A program made the position numbers and the translations under genes. The notes below the pieces were generated by a model, which was not told where the DNA came from, searched no databases, and saw only the letters and a list, made by a program, of their open reading frames with translations. A stretch of 64,000 nucleotides of DNA from Selenomonas sp. F0473 (lineage in GTDB: Bacteria; Bacillota; Negativicutes; Selenomonadales; Selenomonadaceae): the NCBI RefSeq assembly GCF_000315545.1, contig NZ_JH992902.1:593280-657279 (forward strand), in the 5' to 3' direction. Of the stretch, positions 44,972 through 52,975 are shown piece after piece; position 1 is the stretch's first letter; every line of letters begins with the position of its first letter.

Positions 44972-45000
44972 TTGTCTCTTTCCCGCGCCTATGGTATAAT
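44972..45000 (+). promoter_or_regulatory. Promoter of the pseudo-P-type ATPase gene
   Basis: TTGTCT (44972-44977) and TATAAT (44995-45000) are 17 nt apart and the -10 is extended (TGG). It is divergent from the fbp promoter. Confidence 0.75.
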
Positions 45001-45042: not shown

Positions 45043-46404
45043 TTGAAAAAATATTTCTCGAGCTTTTTTCACTTCATCGGAAGCGTGATCCTTGCGGCGG
45101 CCGCGGCAGGTTTTTGGTACATTGCCGAGGGGATGACGCTGGAAGCGGCGTCCGAGGTCTTCGTCGGCGTCTTCCTATCCGCCTCGCCCCTGCCGTTCAT
45201 TCTGTCGCGCCGGTTCATTGCCGTGCGCATCAAGCGCAGCCTCAAAAACTCTGCCGCGGTATGCAGCCGCATGAGCGCGCTGACCGACCTCATGCGTATC
45301 GATACGCTCGCGTTCAACCGCAACGGAACATTGACGGAAGGCAGCGTATTTATCTCAGGTCTCGTCCCCGAGGGCATGACGCAGGGCTCTCTCCTCTCCC
45401 TCGCCGCGAGTGCGGAGCGCGAGGCATCTCACCCATACGCGCACGCCATCTACGATACCGCCGTACAGCGCGGTCTGCATCTGCAGCGCCACTCCGCCGC
45501 ACGCGAGGCAGAAAGTTTCGGCGTAGAGGCGCTCATCGCGCGCACGCCCGTCCGCGTCGGCAATAAGGAATGGCTGCGGGAGGAGAATGTCGAAATCAGC
45601 GCCGCTCTTCTCACGCGCGCCGACCAGCTCGCAACGAGCGGGCAGACGCCGCTCTTCGTCAGTTCGAGCAAATATGCGCGCGGCATCATCGCCGTCCGCG
45701 ACGACGTGCGCGCGGAGGTCAAGCGTGCGCTGAACGAGCTGCGGCGGAGGGGCCTTTCCCTTATCCTCCTGACAGGAGAAACGAAACGCCTTGCAGCCGC
45801 AACGGGTAAGGAACTCCACATCGGAGAAATCCGCGCGGATCTCACGCCTGCCGACAAGGCACGCGAAATCCGTCTGCTCCGGACACGCGGCGCCGTCGTC
45901 GCAATGGTCGGGGATCCGGAGACGGATCAGCCGGCTCTGCGCGCCGCCGATATCAGCATCGGATGCCCTTCGTCGCTGCATCGCCCGTCCGAACTCCCGC
46001 AGGAGGCGCCCAAAGATCCGCTGCGCGAAGAACTCCTGCGCGGTCCCGACGCCTCCGCCGCGCGCGAAGCGAAAGAGAACGCGCCGCTGATGCCGCCCGA
46101 GGACGCCGCGTATTTCGAAACGCAGACGCTGCGTAACCGAGACCGCGCCGCAGATTTCACCCCCGACATCATACTCGACGGGACGGGGCTTCCCGGACTT
46201 GTCGCGCTCTGGGACAGCAGCGATGCCGCCCGCGCCCGCGCCAAACAAAACGCATGGCTGTCGTTTTTCTTCCTGCTCTTCTTTACGCCGCTGACGGCGG
46301 GAGGTCCCTTTCTTTTGGGCGGCGCACCGATTCCTTCCCTATTCGTCGGTGCTTCCCTCTTCATTTTACTCGTTTTACTCGCCGTCAATGCGCTGCGCGA
46401 ATGA
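45043..46404 (+). CDS. Catalytically degenerate P1B-type ATPase-like protein
   Basis: A 453-residue protein, start TTG 45043 with AAGGAG 10 nt upstream. It corresponds to the C-terminal two thirds of a heavy-metal P1B-ATPase: a short membrane segment pair (7-55), the P- and N-domains, and a final pair of membrane helices (about 405-450). Key residues are altered: the phosphorylation motif DKTGTLT reads NRNGTLT (N92, R93, N94), the CPC metal motif is replaced by SPLP near residue 50, and the hinge GDGxNDxPAL reads GDPETDQPAL (290-299). The SHP adenine-binding motif (129-131) and LTGE are kept. The frame is intact and has a good promoter, so it looks like a maintained pseudoenzyme. It precedes cydA by 175 nt. 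Confidence 0.8.
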   Translation: MKKYFSSFFHFIGSVILAAAAAGFWYIAEGMTLEAASEVFVGVFLSASPLPFILSRRFIAVRIKRSLKNSAAVCSRMSALTDLMRIDTLAFNRNGTLTEGSVFISGLVPEGMTQGSLLSLAASAEREASHPYAHAIYDTAVQRGLHLQRHSAAREAESFGVEALIARTPVRVGNKEWLREENVEISAALLTRADQLATSGQTPLFVSSSKYARGIIAVRDDVRAEVKRALNELRRRGLSLILLTGETKRLAAATGKELHIGEIRADLTPADKAREIRLLRTRGAVVAMVGDPETDQPALRAADISIGCPSSLHRPSELPQEAPKDPLREELLRGPDASAAREAKENAPLMPPEDAAYFETQTLRNRDRAADFTPDIILDGTGLPGLVALWDSSDAARARAKQNAWLSFFFLLFFTPLTAGGPFLLGGAPIPSLFVGASLFILLVLLAVNALRE

Positions 46405-46449: not shown

Positions 46450-46478
46450 TTGTATTTCATTTTGGCCTATGATATAAT
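46450..46478 (+). promoter_or_regulatory. cyd operon promoter
   Basis: TTGTAT (46450-46455) and TATAAT (46473-46478) are 17 nt apart. The roughly 90-nt leader before cydA contains a possible stem CTTTTG-n14-CAAAAG (about 46493-46518). No Rex-type palindrome was recognised. Confidence 0.75.
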
Positions 46479-46579: not shown

Positions 46580-47953
46580 ATGGAAGAAGTGCTGCTGTCG
46601 CGATGGCAATTTGCCCTCACGACCATCTACCACTTTCTCTTCGTTCCGCTCACGCTCGGCATGGCGATCTTCGTCGCCCTGCTCGAAACGTGCTATGTGC
46701 AGACGAAGAACGCGGCGTGGAAGAAGACCTGCCGCAAGCTGCTGAAATTCTTCGGCACGCTCTTTCTCATCAATTTCGCGATGGGCGTCGCGACGGGACT
46801 TGTGCAGGAGTTCCAGTTCGGCATGAACTGGTCGGAGTATTCTCGTTTCATGGGCGATATTTTCGGCGCGCCGCTCGCGCTCGAGGCGCTCACCGCCTTC
46901 TTCCTCGAATCGACGTTCCTCGGCATCTGGATATTCGGCTGGGACAAGCTGCCCGAAAAGGTGCACTGCGCGTGCATCTGGCTGGTCGCCGTCGGCAGCA
47001 ATTTCTCGGCGTTCTGGATTCTCGTCGCGAACTCCTTCATGCAGCACCCCGTCGGCTATACGCTCGCGAACGGCCGCGCTGAGATGGTGAGTTTCTTCGA
47101 GCTCATCACGAACCACTACATCCTTGGCGAGCAGTCGCATACGCTCTTCGCGGGCATCACGACGGCGGGCTTCGTCGTCATCGCGGTCTCGGCGTGGAAA
47201 CTCCTCAACGACGCGGAATCCCACACGGCGTTCACGCACGCCATTAAGGCGGGCGCCGTCTACACGATTGTCGGCGTCGTCGGCGTCATCGCGAGCGGGC
47301 ATCTGCATACGCAGTACCTCGCGCAGGCGAGCCCGATGAAACTCGCGGCGATGGAGGCGCTCTGGGAGACGGAGGACCCCGCGCCGTTCGCGGTCGTCGC
47401 CTACCCGAACATGGAGGCGGGCAGGAACGACTTTGAAATCACGATTCCCTACATGTTCTCCTTCATGGTGCACGATAAGCCCGCGGGCGAGGTGCGCGGC
47501 ATCAACGACCTGCAGAAGGAGGCCGTCCAGAAATACGGCGCGGGCGACTATCGGCCGCACGTGACGATTCTCTTCTACGCGTTCCGCGCGATGGTCGGCG
47601 CCGGGTTCTTCATGGTGCTGATTTCGCTCATCGTCTACTACCTCGCAAAGAAGGACAAGCTGTTTTCGGTGCGGAACCTCCTGCGCGCGCTGCCTTGGCT
47701 CGTCGTCATCCCGTTCATTGCGAACTCCGCCGGCTGGATTGTCGCGGAGATGGGGCGGCAGCCGTGGATCGTCGTCGGCCTCCAGAAGACGGTCGACGGC
47801 GTATCGCCGAACCTCACCCCGCCTGAGATTTGGTTCACCATGATCGGCTTTACCGTGCTCTATCTCCTGCTCATTATCACGGCGCTCTACATCGCGTTCC
47901 GCTTTATCCGCCGCACGCAGATTACAGCGGCACCGGAAGGAGGCGCTCAGTAA
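46580..47953 (+). CDS. cydA: Cytochrome bd ubiquinol oxidase subunit I
   Basis: A 457-residue heme-bearing subunit of the bd oxidase, which reduces O2 at low concentration without pumping protons. Nine or so membrane helices; conserved segments are SRWQFALTTIYHFLFVPLTLG, GVATGLVQEFQFGMNW (heme/quinol region), FFLESTFLGIWIFGW, SNSFMQHPVGY-like NSFMQHPVGYTL, and EMGRQPWIVVG. Length indicates the short Q-loop class. In an apparently anaerobic organism it would scavenge oxygen. It shares one base with cydB at 47953. Confidence 0.97.
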   Translation: MEEVLLSRWQFALTTIYHFLFVPLTLGMAIFVALLETCYVQTKNAAWKKTCRKLLKFFGTLFLINFAMGVATGLVQEFQFGMNWSEYSRFMGDIFGAPLALEALTAFFLESTFLGIWIFGWDKLPEKVHCACIWLVAVGSNFSAFWILVANSFMQHPVGYTLANGRAEMVSFFELITNHYILGEQSHTLFAGITTAGFVVIAVSAWKLLNDAESHTAFTHAIKAGAVYTIVGVVGVIASGHLHTQYLAQASPMKLAAMEALWETEDPAPFAVVAYPNMEAGRNDFEITIPYMFSFMVHDKPAGEVRGINDLQKEAVQKYGAGDYRPHVTILFYAFRAMVGAGFFMVLISLIVYYLAKKDKLFSVRNLLRALPWLVVIPFIANSAGWIVAEMGRQPWIVVGLQKTVDGVSPNLTPPEIWFTMIGFTVLYLLLIITALYIAFRFIRRTQITAAPEGGAQ

Positions 47954-48969
47954 TGGATTACAATATTCTTTGGTTCGTCCTCATCGCCGTGCTCTTCACG
48001 GGGTTCTTCTTCCTCGAGGGCTTTGACTACGGCGTCGGGACATTGCTCCCTTTCATCTCCGACGATGAAAAGGACCGGACGCAACTCATTCAGACCATCG
48101 GCCCCGTCTGGGACGGTAACGAGGTGTGGATGATTACGGCGGGCGGCGCGATGTTCGCCGCGTTCCCGCATGTCTACGCCACGATGTTCAGCACGTTCTA
48201 CATCGCGCTCTTCCTCATGCTCGTGGCGCTCATCCTGCGCGCCGTCGCGTTCGAGTTCCGTCATCACCGCGATGACGACGCATGGAAACGCCGCTGGTCG
48301 TACGCGATTGCCTTTGGGAGCATCGTGCCCGCGATTCTCTGGGGCGTTGCCGTGACGAACCTCATCGCGGGGCTGCCCATCGGAGCGAACATGGTCTACC
48401 GGGGCGGGTTCTTCGACCTGCTCACACCCTATACGCTCGTCGGGGGCATTACCTTCCTCTGCGTGTTCGCATTCCACGGCGCGGCATTCCTGACGCTCCG
48501 CCTGACGAGCTCCTATCTCCTCGCGCAGGCGCGGACATTCGCGCTGAGATTCGGCGCTGCCGCCGCGGTCTTCTACGTGCTCTGCATGATACTCACCTAT
48601 ACGGAGACCGACCTCTACGACAGCACGGCCGCGGGCGCGGCGCTCTTCGTCTCGGCGGTGCTCTTCGTCGCGGGGCTCGGCGCGATGTATGCGCGGGCGC
48701 ATAAACCCGCGTTCATCCTCGGCGGTCTTGCCATCGTCGGCACGACGGTCGGATTCTTCGCGGGGCTCTTCCCGCGGCTCATGGTCTCAAGCCTCAACCC
48801 GGGCTGGAGCCTGACAATCCGCAATGCGTCGTCGACGGAGTACACGCTCTCTATTATGACGGTCGCAGCCGCGATTCTCGTCCCCGTCGTCCTCATCTAT
48901 CAGATTTGGACGTACTATATCTTCCGCAAACGCATCACGCCGGAGGATGCCGCACATACGGAGTATTGA
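47953..48969 (+). CDS. cydB: Cytochrome bd ubiquinol oxidase subunit II
   Basis: A 338-residue partner of CydA. The start is ATG 47953-47955, overlapping the cydA stop (TAATG) with AGGAGG 9 nt before it; the open frame extends upstream only because it overlaps cydA. It has about eight membrane helices and the family features FFFLEGFDYGVGTLLPF, GPVWDGNEVWMITAGGAMFAAFP and RAVAFEFRHHRDD. The cydDC transporter genes required for bd assembly follow directly. Confidence 0.96.
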   Translation: MDYNILWFVLIAVLFTGFFFLEGFDYGVGTLLPFISDDEKDRTQLIQTIGPVWDGNEVWMITAGGAMFAAFPHVYATMFSTFYIALFLMLVALILRAVAFEFRHHRDDDAWKRRWSYAIAFGSIVPAILWGVAVTNLIAGLPIGANMVYRGGFFDLLTPYTLVGGITFLCVFAFHGAAFLTLRLTSSYLLAQARTFALRFGAAAAVFYVLCMILTYTETDLYDSTAAGAALFVSAVLFVAGLGAMYARAHKPAFILGGLAIVGTTVGFFAGLFPRLMVSSLNPGWSLTIRNASSTEYTLSIMTVAAAILVPVVLIYQIWTYYIFRKRITPEDAAHTEY

Positions 48970-48981
48970 TTCCATACGGAA

Positions 48982-50619
48982 ATGAAACAACGGATTCTTT
49001 TTGAAACGCTCAAATCACAAAAGAATATCCTCTTCCCGCGCATCGGCATGGAGCTGCTGAGCGGCATGCTCACCATCGCCGCGGCATGGGAAACTGCTGT
49101 CCTCGTAGACCTTGTGTTCATGCGGGGCGGCGGATTAGCAGAGACAGCACCGGAACTTCCGGTGCTGTTTTTGTGCCTTCTCGTCACGGCGCTCCTGCGC
49201 GTGCCGAAGAGCCGCCTGGAGGCGCGGCTTTCCGATGGTGCGCGCCTGGATTGCCGCCGGCGACTCCACACGGCGCTGCTCTCTGAGCGGCACGACGTAT
49301 CGGGGCTCCTGACGCTCGCCCTGGAGCGTGTCGATGCCCTTGACCAATACTTTCGCACGGTGCTGCCGACGGCGGTCGCATTCGTCGTGCTCGTGCCGAT
49401 GATTCTCATGGCGGCTGCCGTCGCCGACCCGCTCTCCGCCGTGCTCTTCCTCGCAACGCTGCCCATCGCCCCCTTTCTCCTCTATCTCATCGGACGGGCG
49501 ACGCGGCGCGCGAGCGAACGCCAATGGGACGAGATGTCCCGCCTCACGGCGGGCTTTGGCGAGCTCATCCGCGCGGCGATGACGCTCAAGATATTTCACC
49601 GCACCGCCGCGGAGGGGGCACATCTCGCGTGCATGAGCCGCGCCTTTTCCGAGGCGTCGCTGCGCGTCCTGCGGCTCGCCTTCGTCTCTTCGTTCGCGCT
49701 CGAACTCATCACGACGCTCTCCATCGCGCTCATTGCCGTCTCCATCGGTCTGCGCCTCCTCGATGGCATGCTCGACTTTCGCGCGGCGTTCTTCGTGCTC
49801 ATTCTCGCGCCGCAGTTCTATCAGCCGCTGCGTGAGGGCGGCATTGCGTTCCACGCGGCGATGGAGGCAAAGACGGCGGAGGAGGCGCTCCTCCCCTATC
49901 TCAGCCGCTCCGTTCCTATGGACGGAGCGCACGACCGCGTGCTCTCTCCGCCCGCGCTATATACGGAGCAGCTCTCCTACCGCTATCCGCTCACAGAGGA
50001 GGCGGTGCTGACCAGCCTCTCGCTGCGTTTTCCTGCAGGCAAACGAACTGTGCTCACGGGCGCGAGCGGCGCGGGCAAGACGACGCTGCTCATGCTCCTT
50101 GCGGGGCTTACCGCGCCGACGGAGGGCACGGTGCGGCTCGCGGACGGCGCGGGGGACGGCGCATCGTTTGACCTCAGGTCGCTTTCGGAGAAAACGCGGC
50201 AGACTCTCATCAGCTATGTGCCGCAGGAGCCGCATATCTTTGCCGCGACGCTTGCGGAGAATGTCTCGCTGTGGCGGGCGGGCGTCAAGCGCGACGACGT
50301 CGCGGCTGCACTCAATGCGGCCGCGCTTGGCGACTTCCTCCGCGCATTGCCGCAGGGGCTTGATACGCCGCTCGGCGCGGGCGGTCATCCGCTCTCCGCG
50401 GGGCAGCGCCACCGTCTCGGCATCGCGCGCGCGCTGTGTGCTGCGCGTCCCGTTGTGCTCCTTGACGAGCCGACGGCGGGGCTGGACAGCGATACCGAGG
50501 CGCAGGTGCTCGATGTGCTTGCTGCGTTCGCACACCGCCGCACGCTCATCCTCTCGTCCCACCGCCCAGCGGTCACGGCATGGGCGGAGCATATTGTTGC
50601 GCTGGGAGGTGAGACATGA
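48982..50619 (+). CDS. cydD: ABC transporter CydD (cytochrome bd assembly)
   Basis: A 545-residue exporter half-unit: a six-helix membrane domain (about 20-300) and an ABC ATPase with Walker A LTGASGAGKTTLLML near residue 350, a Q-loop (YVPQEPHIF), signature LSAGQRHRLGIARAL, Walker B RPVVLLDEPTAGLDS and the H-loop SSHR. In E. coli CydDC exports cysteine/glutathione and is needed for heme insertion into bd oxidase. The stop overlaps the next start (ATGA). Confidence 0.94.
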   Translation: MKQRILFETLKSQKNILFPRIGMELLSGMLTIAAAWETAVLVDLVFMRGGGLAETAPELPVLFLCLLVTALLRVPKSRLEARLSDGARLDCRRRLHTALLSERHDVSGLLTLALERVDALDQYFRTVLPTAVAFVVLVPMILMAAAVADPLSAVLFLATLPIAPFLLYLIGRATRRASERQWDEMSRLTAGFGELIRAAMTLKIFHRTAAEGAHLACMSRAFSEASLRVLRLAFVSSFALELITTLSIALIAVSIGLRLLDGMLDFRAAFFVLILAPQFYQPLREGGIAFHAAMEAKTAEEALLPYLSRSVPMDGAHDRVLSPPALYTEQLSYRYPLTEEAVLTSLSLRFPAGKRTVLTGASGAGKTTLLMLLAGLTAPTEGTVRLADGAGDGASFDLRSLSEKTRQTLISYVPQEPHIFAATLAENVSLWRAGVKRDDVAAALNAAALGDFLRALPQGLDTPLGAGGHPLSAGQRHRLGIARALCAARPVVLLDEPTAGLDSDTEAQVLDVLAAFAHRRTLILSSHRPAVTAWAEHIVALGGET

Positions 50620-52262
50620 TGCACGGCATTTCGCTGCTGCGCCGCCTGCTCTCCGTCGCGGATACGGCGAAGGCGCTGCCCGCCCTCCTCGCGGGAACGC
50701 TCGCCGTCCTCTCCGCCGTCGGCCTCATCGGCACGGCGGCATGGATTATTGCGAGCGCCGCGCTCCGGCCGCCCCTCTCCACGCTCGCGCTCGCCATCAC
50801 GCTGGTGCGTGCCTGCGGTATCGGACGCGCCGTCTTCCGCTACCTCGACCGCTGGTTCTCCCATGTGCTCGCCTTCGACTGTTACGAAAAACTCCAACGC
50901 GAAACTTACGACCGCGCCGCTGAGAATATCCCGCTGCGCGCGGGCAACGTGCGCGAGGGCGCGTTCCTGCACGACCTCCTCGCAGGCTGCGAGACGCTGC
51001 GCGATTTCTACCTGCGCACCGTTCCGCAGCCACTCATCGCAGGGATTCTGACGGCGATGACCTGCGCGGCGCTCCTGCCGCTCTCGCCCCTCGGCGCGGC
51101 GGCACTCGCGGCCATCTATCTCCTCCATCTCGCACTTCCCCATCTCCTCCTGCATGAGACGGGGCTGCGCGAGGAGAGCGCAGCCTATCGTGGCGCGCTC
51201 CTTGACCTGACCGCCGGACGGGATGAACTCATCGCGGCAGGCGCCATTCCCCACGCGGAGGAGCAGCTCTCCCGTGCAGCCTCTGCATTCCAGAACCGAC
51301 GGCAGCGCCGCAGCATATATCGTGACCGCCTTTTCTGCGGGCTGGACATTCTGCGCACCGTCCTCTGGCTCGCGCTCATCATCCTGCTCATCCCGCACGT
51401 CGCGGAAGAGGGGCTGACGGGTGTTCAATTCGCCGTATGGGTGCTCGTCCTTGAGGCGGTGCTCGCGGAGTACCGTTCCCTGCCTGCGGCATCGCTCGGT
51501 ATGACGGAGGCGCTGCGTGCGGCGGAATCAATTTTGCCGAAAGATAAGATGCCGGTACGGACAGATGTGCCCGACGCGTCCGTAAAAACAGGTCCCATCG
51601 CGGCGGAAGTGCCGACCGACGCACCGCTCATTGAGGCGCAGAACATCTCCTTCGGCTACCATCCGGAGATTCCCATTCTGCAAGACCTCTCCTTTGCCGT
51701 CCGGCAGGGGGAGCACACGGCGGTCATCGGCGAGAGCGGCGCGGGCAAGACGACGCTCGCAAGCCTCCTCCTCCGCCTGTGGGAATGCGATAGCGGGACG
51801 CTCCGCTATCGCGGCGTCCCCTCGGCCGCCCTCTCCCGCGCGGAGACGCGCGCACACTTCGGCGCTGCACTCCAAGGCGCCTACCTTTTCAGCACATCGA
51901 TACGCGATAATTTCGCGCGTCTGCACGAGGATATCACGGAGGAGCGTATATGGCGCGCACTCGACACGGCGCAGCTCGCGGGCGTCGTGCGCGCCCTGCC
52001 CCGTGGCCTTGACGAGCCGCTCGGCGAGAATGCCGCGCGCCTCTCGGGCGGACAGCGCAGCCGCCTGCTGACGGCGCTCGCGCTCGCCTCGGACGCCCCT
52101 ATCCTCCTGCTCGACGAACCGACGGCGGGGCTGAACGCAGCGCTCAGCGAGCGCCTCATCCGGAGCGTTCTCGCGGAACTCGACGCCGAAGGGCGCACGC
52201 TCGTCGTCATCACGCATGACCTTCCCCTATTAGACCATATGAAACAGGTAATACGACTATGA
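50616..52262 (+). CDS. cydC: ABC transporter CydC (cytochrome bd assembly)
   Basis: A 548-residue second half-unit: membrane domain (about 15-300) with the CydC pattern RYLDRWFSHVLAFDCYEKLQRETY, and an ATPase with Walker A IGESGAGKTTLASLLLRLW, signature LSGGQRSRLLTALAL, Walker B APILLLDEPTAGLNA and ITHD. It forms the heterodimer with CydD. Overlaps cydD by 4 nt and the following unknown gene by 4 nt. Confidence 0.94.
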   Translation: MMHGISLLRRLLSVADTAKALPALLAGTLAVLSAVGLIGTAAWIIASAALRPPLSTLALAITLVRACGIGRAVFRYLDRWFSHVLAFDCYEKLQRETYDRAAENIPLRAGNVREGAFLHDLLAGCETLRDFYLRTVPQPLIAGILTAMTCAALLPLSPLGAAALAAIYLLHLALPHLLLHETGLREESAAYRGALLDLTAGRDELIAAGAIPHAEEQLSRAASAFQNRRQRRSIYRDRLFCGLDILRTVLWLALIILLIPHVAEEGLTGVQFAVWVLVLEAVLAEYRSLPAASLGMTEALRAAESILPKDKMPVRTDVPDASVKTGPIAAEVPTDAPLIEAQNISFGYHPEIPILQDLSFAVRQGEHTAVIGESGAGKTTLASLLLRLWECDSGTLRYRGVPSAALSRAETRAHFGAALQGAYLFSTSIRDNFARLHEDITEERIWRALDTAQLAGVVRALPRGLDEPLGENAARLSGGQRSRLLTALALASDAPILLLDEPTAGLNAALSERLIRSVLAELDAEGRTLVVITHDLPLLDHMKQVIRL

Positions 52263-52975
52263 ATCACGAAACATTTCACAGCCTCATCCACGTTGTCATC
52301 GACCGCCTCGGCCCATCCGCGCCGCCGCACGAACTCCTTGAGGGAGGCGTGGACGACTGGCATGCGTGCGCGCGGCTCGCCCACTTTCTATTGCAGATGC
52401 CGGAACACCGTGCGGAGGGCATCGCACTGCTCCAAAGCGCCGCGGGTGCCGCGGTGAACGAAGACCTCGCGCAGGACGTGGAGGAGAAAGTCTACGCGCT
52501 CCAAGCCCTCTCCGCTGCGGAGGCCGAACGCGCGGAGACGCGGGCTGCGGCGCTCGAACATATCAACATGGCAATTGAGTGCGCCGAGTCCACCGATTTT
52601 CTCTACAAGTACATCCTGCGCGGCGAGCTCTGGGCGGACCGCTGGAACCTCATGCACAAGATGGGGATGACCGAAGAGGCTGAGCAGGAGGCGGACGAGC
52701 GCATCGCGGCCTTTGACGGGATGGACGCCGACGTTCCGCACAACAGCTATCTCTACTACGGCTACCGGTTCAAGGCGCATCTCGCCGCCGAACGCGGCGT
52801 CCCGCTCGTTGCGAAGGACTATATGCACATGGCGCTGCACGCGATGGAGATTCCGCCCGCCTACGAGCCCCCCCTTGCAGACGCCTTCGCCGCATCGCAT
52901 GAAAACGCCGCATGGATTCTCCGCGAAATCGACCGCGTGACGCCGCATCCGGAGACGCTCCACTGGGATATATAA
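52259..52975 (+). CDS. Unknown alpha-helical protein coupled to the cyd operon
   Basis: A 238-residue soluble protein with no recognised family. It lacks a signal peptide and membrane helix. The sequence is helical with repeated Ala/Glu-rich segments (ACARLAHFLLQMPEHRAEGIALLQSAAG; ALSAAEAERAETRAAALEHINMAIECAE; AKDYMHMALHAMEIPP), suggesting TPR-like repeats. The start ATG overlaps the cydC stop (ATGA), so it is co-translated, and the operon terminator follows at 52987. It may be an accessory factor of bd oxidase or CydDC; that is a context inference. Confidence 0.8.
   Translation: MNHETFHSLIHVVIDRLGPSAPPHELLEGGVDDWHACARLAHFLLQMPEHRAEGIALLQSAAGAAVNEDLAQDVEEKVYALQALSAAEAERAETRAAALEHINMAIECAESTDFLYKYILRGELWADRWNLMHKMGMTEEAEQEADERIAAFDGMDADVPHNSYLYYGYRFKAHLAAERGVPLVAKDYMHMALHAMEIPPAYEPPLADAFAASHENAAWILREIDRVTPHPETLHWDI

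Follow-up and report, generated by a model that had tools for sequence, protein, structure and literature searches.

The window, the whole 64,000-nucleotide stretch of Selenomonas sp. F0473 DNA that was analysed, carries a pseudo-P1B-ATPase gene (pATP) directly upstream of cydABDC. Its reading frame runs through 453 codons without interruption, as described in the earlier note on this DNA, and cydA starts 175 bp downstream on the same strand, at position 46580. The features of the locus are as follows:

44972–45000, + strand: sigma-70-type promoter of pATP, TTGTCT-17-TATAAT with an extended −10, conserved in 13 genomes.
45043–46404, + strand: pATP, 453 aa, TTG start, with an ortholog in 13 of 13 other genus genomes.
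45046–45249, + strand: first membrane helix pair (aa 2–69; AlphaFold2 helices 2–28, 33–46 and 50–69, and alignment), the counterpart of the helices around CPC, with CPC changed to S48-P49-L50.
45268–45384, + strand: first part of the P domain (aa 76–114), with N92-R93-N94-G-T in place of DKTGT.
45385–45687, + strand: N (nucleotide-binding) domain (aa 115–215), the most conserved part by dN/dS (0.022), residue retention and the CopA control.
45688–45972, + strand: second part of the P domain (aa 216–310), with TGE for TGD, K272 kept and GDPETD for GDGIND.
45973–46146, + strand: linker (aa 311–368), partly disordered with low pLDDT, and long in the genus by alignment.
46189–46401, + strand: last membrane helix pair (aa 383–453), matching the two final helices of CopA by AlphaFold2 and PDB match, ending in NALRE.
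46450–46478, + strand: separate, genus-conserved promoter-like element of cydA, TTGTAT-17-TATAAT, sharing a core sequence with the pATP promoter.
46580–52262, + strand: cydABDC, the downstream neighbours of pATP.

An AAGGAG site precedes the TTG start of pATP, and TTG is used in 12 of 13 genus genomes, with GTG in the remaining one. The near-consensus promoter with an extended −10 that had been proposed for the gene was recovered, with TG before the −10 and conservation in the genus. The promoter-like element of cydA scored below the threshold of the promoter scan, though it too is conserved in the genus. The core common to both regions is CCTATGNTATAAT (44985–45000 for pATP and 46463–46478 for cydA, + strand), likewise genus-conserved, and TATGRTATAAT with one mismatch allowed occurs six times in the window against 0.5 expected.

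In all 13 other genus genomes, pATP lies on the fbp side of cydABDC, directly upstream of cydA. Most of these relatives have a fused ABC permease/substrate-binding gene (cluster C10, ~ 515 aa) between fbp and pATP, for example L033, where it spans −1729 to −188 counted from pATP, and some nine further loci in the genus; it is absent from this interval in the window and in S. artemidis. The gene after cydC (52259–52975, + strand) encodes a 238-aa protein that is predicted to be all-helical and TPR-like (pLDDT 77.7) and had no match in Pfam or NCBIfam. Of 151 Selenomonadaceae genomes, 101 have it, often close to pATP-cydABDC, and in some genera it directly follows pATP with no cyd gene between. 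We rejected it as an obligate partner of pATP on this count of genomes and on its absence from several genera that keep pATP.

The protein corresponds to the C-terminal half of a CopA-type P1B-ATPase; the HMA domains, M1–M4 and the A domain are absent. The best family model was TIGR01525 (heavy-metal P-type ATPase, E 1.3e-52), with the match limited to the C-terminal part of the model (176–475 of 560). In Pfam, PF00702 (HAD fold) was the sole match, and no A-domain model was matched in the Pfam and family-model searches. The AlphaFold2 model (mean pLDDT 82.6) shows helices 2–28 and 33–69, a P/N/P body, and helices 383–419 and 432–451. Foldseek searches with this model returned CopA structures (7r0g, TM 0.77) and the CopA ATP-binding domain (2b8e, rmsd 1.9 Å), and PDB sequence searches were consistent with these matches. 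Family model, structure comparison and tree agree that the P and N domains and the C-terminal helices are homologous to those of P1B heavy-metal ATPases. Anchoring in the membrane by four helices is predicted from the model, in which both helix pairs appear as the earlier note had held.

Alignment confirmed the substitutions on which that note was built: DKTGTLT reads N92-R93-N94-G-T-L-T, so that the phosphorylatable Asp is an Asn; GDGIND reads GDPETD (290–295), and no CPC, SPC or CPX membrane metal motif is left. In addition, TGD reads TGE (244–246). The note was right in its observations and had not noticed the missing M1–M4, A and HMA domains or the spread of the gene through the family. 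With no phosphoenzyme site, no metal site and no domain carrying the TGE dephosphorylation motif, pATP cannot, judged from its sequence, form a phosphoenzyme or transport metal by a P-type cycle. Since none of the canonical sites is left, the suggestion that it senses metal by way of them finds no support. The N domain retains E125, H130-P131, G160 and G173, and Ser158 stands at the first glycine of GxG across the genus. Within the linker, a DPLxEELLRGP ... EPLMxPEDAAYFE block is kept in the genus alignment.

We then looked at the distribution of the gene. Orthologs without stops and with 68–79% identity were found in 13 of 13 other genus genomes, including Selenomonas noxia, S. infelix, S. 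artemidis, S. felix, S. flueggei, S. massiliensis and Centipeda periodontii, and position 92 is Asn in all 14 genus genomes. Pseudo-copies of 380–760 aa occur in about 130 of 151 Selenomonadaceae genomes, in 23 genera, with an in-frame stop in four. A profile of the short forms placed a gene of the pATP lineage in 136 of the 151 genomes and none in 15; the carriers divide into about 107 with minis (most frames shorter than 500 aa), 23 with longer degenerate forms and six with an intact CopA, where copies not read individually were classed by frame length and by not being the separate CopA. The phosphorylated Asp is kept in a single one of 84 pseudo-copies read (G031, DRSGTVT), and in that copy CPC and GDGxND are gone. 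The loss of the Asp, whose conservation across Selenomonadaceae the earlier note had made a test of its claim, is fixed in the genus. Short forms were not seen outside Selenomonadaceae among 250 genomes of the class, where the few strong matches are open frames of 758–842 aa. The A domain was decayed or replaced in the longer pseudo-homologues that were inspected.

Selection on pATP is purifying, strong and centred on the N domain. Within the genus its dN/dS is 0.118, compared with 0.072 for cydA, 0.122 for cydB, 0.127 for cydD, 0.170 for cydC and 0.060 for fbp; the value points to purifying selection, not relaxed decay, and the frame is open in all 14 genus genomes. By region, dN/dS is 0.022 in the N domain, 0.069 and 0.104 in the first and second P parts, 0.118 and 0.173 in the helices and 0.251 in the linker. 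The active CopA of the same genomes gave a different order (N domain 0.174, first P part 0.186, second P part 0.120, CPC helices 0.091), so the N domain, the most constrained part of pATP, ranks with the least constrained parts of active CopA. In matched genome pairs, nonsynonymous differences per site in the N domain were 0.013 for pATP versus 0.129 for CopA, and pATP had the lower value in 64 of 66 pairs, whereas synonymous divergence was similar (0.53 versus 0.48). DNA-level constraint or gene conversion as the source of this conservation was rejected, since pS is ~ 0.5, as elsewhere in the gene. Eight other genera were compared by pN: in six of them the N domain scored lowest, in g25 it tied and g12 was the exception, although synonymous sites in these genera are near saturation. 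Among 71 pseudo-copies outside the genus, E125 is kept in 69, H130 in 65, G160 in 71 and G173 in 70, while D92 is kept in 1, T94 in 5, D291 in 12 and N294 in 11. Taken by cells of the alignment, 97% are kept for E125/H130/G160/G173 versus 18% for D92/K93/T94/D246/D291/N294.

We next asked where the gene came from. In the tree, all pseudo-copies fall in a single clade (support 92), albeit with long branches, which joins the intact CopA of Megamonas (G027, G035) at support 100. The second CopA lineage is separate from the pseudo-copies (support 99), and the deeper node uniting the remaining intact locus copies is weak (63). In most other genera mapped, the gene is divergent from ispE-gntR-glmU-prs, and in many of them cydABDC then follows. 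In Megamonas G027, csoR and a complete copA occupy the position of pATP, and G036 and G059 each have a complete copA immediately upstream of cydA. Six genomes in total have an intact locus, as csoR-copA and/or copA-cydAB. Intermediates (G018, G046, G019, G047, G025, G032, G031 and G042) keep the early helices, and their A domain is decayed or missing. The second CopA (E 1e-130) was found in none of the six genomes whose locus CopA is intact versus 140 of the 145 others (Fisher p 3e-8, with genomes counted as independent despite shared ancestry). That the locus CopA is intact in six genomes that have no second CopA suggests that the second CopA freed the old copy. As the earlier note had proposed to check, full-length P1B-ATPases are present elsewhere in the genome of the window: four are intact, one of them a CopA with HMA, TGES, CPC, DKTGT and GDGVND in place. 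This active CopA (L070, G000:C1:1435854-1437371, − strand) has an extra, CopZ-like HMA domain fused at its C terminus, and another of the P1B-ATPases (L073, G000:C1:1100805-1102298, − strand) has SCG instead of CPC in its metal helix (DFSCGLKLST).

Loss of catalytic residues combined with purifying selection is what is expected of a pseudoenzyme, and the proposal of a functional pseudoenzyme, not a decaying gene, held up: the gene is universal in the genus, has few stops and goes back to one origin. We consider it probable that pATP is a membrane-anchored pseudoenzyme that originated once from csoR-copA and whose N domain serves as a regulatory or scaffold subunit. The gene would have arisen from a csoR-copA copper exporter of an ancestral member of Selenomonadaceae; copper export was most likely taken over by the second CopA, and the old copy would then have lost, stepwise, its HMA domain, A domain, M1–M4, CPC site and phosphorylated Asp. 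Selection keeps the N domain, including the nucleotide pocket, and the four predicted helices would anchor it in the membrane. This domain could bind adenine nucleotide without turnover and/or dock a partner via its nearly frozen surface; an active P1B-ATPase in the same cell is one candidate partner, and cytochrome bd/CydDC is another where the genes are linked. Ser158 speaks against the putative nucleotide binding: the corresponding loop of ATP7B has two glycines reported to lie near ATP, while the part played by the His is disputed (PMC3203118), and Ser158 falls at the first of the two. Two further observations count against the membrane-anchored pseudoenzyme. No partner is consistently adjacent, with cydABDC and the 238-aa gene each sometimes absent, and genus g12 is an exception to the N domain being the most conserved one.

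An alternative, which we regard as rather unlikely, is that pATP forms hetero-oligomers with an active P1B-ATPase such as the second CopA and so modulates it. It is derived from CopA, a separate CopA coexists with 125 of the 130 pseudo-copies, and the related human ATP7B dimerizes, so that mutants affect one another and an inactive subunit alters the behaviour of its partner (PMC7418023). However, nearly all genomes carry CopA, so this co-occurrence tells little, and no gene linkage between pATP and the second CopA was seen. Slightly less credible is a dedicated accessory or regulator of cytochrome bd or its maturation transporter CydDC, a partnership that the earlier note had put forward. The same-strand position directly upstream of cydA in the whole genus, adjacency to cydA in 37 of 130 pseudo-copy genomes (8 genera) and the shared promoter core speak for it. 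Yet adjacency is lost in most genera while the gene is kept: cydA is elsewhere in about 65 genomes with pATP and was not found in 25, several of them at least 96% complete. The two genomes with intact CopA at the same place upstream of cydA show that adjacency need not reflect a new role, and cydA seems to have its own promoter. Linkage to cydAB is therefore not obligate, and the distribution of pATP versus cydA does not support a bd-oxidase-specific function as a general rule. Slow decay of the gene is very improbable. In its favour are the domains and motifs gradually lost in the family and the four copies with stops; against it are the low dN/dS of the gene and its N domain and the universally open frame in the genus, which rule out a decaying pseudogene, as well as retention in 23 genera and the promoter conserved in the genus.

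Kinases, phosphatases and proteases all have well-known pseudoenzyme members. If the membrane-anchored pseudoenzyme reading is true, a P-type ATPase turned pseudoenzyme across a whole bacterial family would be an unusual case. In the open-licence literature searched, no bacterial P-type ATPase pseudoenzyme was described, which does not by itself prove novelty, and open-licence papers on pseudo, truncated or inactive P-type ATPases, on Selenomonas and on cytochrome bd held no description of the pATP family. We put at about even the chance that a copper-pump N domain was converted family-wide into a regulator that is tethered to the membrane and responds to nucleotide or docks a partner, the conversion steps being visible in living relatives. 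The series from intact csoR-copA via forms lacking the A domain to half-size minis, together with the inverted constraint, makes a non-catalytic function of a P-type N domain directly testable in oral and gut bacteria.

Compared with CopA-type P1B-ATPases (TIGR01511/TIGR01525; PDB 3j09, 3rfu, 7r0g), pATP has the same P/N fold and sequence and the last four helices, and it shares a clade with Megamonas CopA; it differs in the absence of HMA, M1–M4, A domain, CPC, Asp and GDGxND, and its constrained part is the N domain, not the transport core. The pocket residues E, H, G and G of the CopA ATP-binding domain (2b8e, 3a1c/3a1d) are present in pATP, whereas most members of the family have lost the P-domain Asp and GDGxND residues. 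Substitution of Asn for the phosphorylated Asp has been used to abolish phosphorylation in Ypk9 (D781N) and ATP13A2 (D508N) (PMC5837089); pATP has the same substitution, but natural and fixed in the genus. With pseudokinases and iRhoms (reviewed in PMC10211241), it shares the lost catalytic residues, the kept fold and selection on features other than catalysis.
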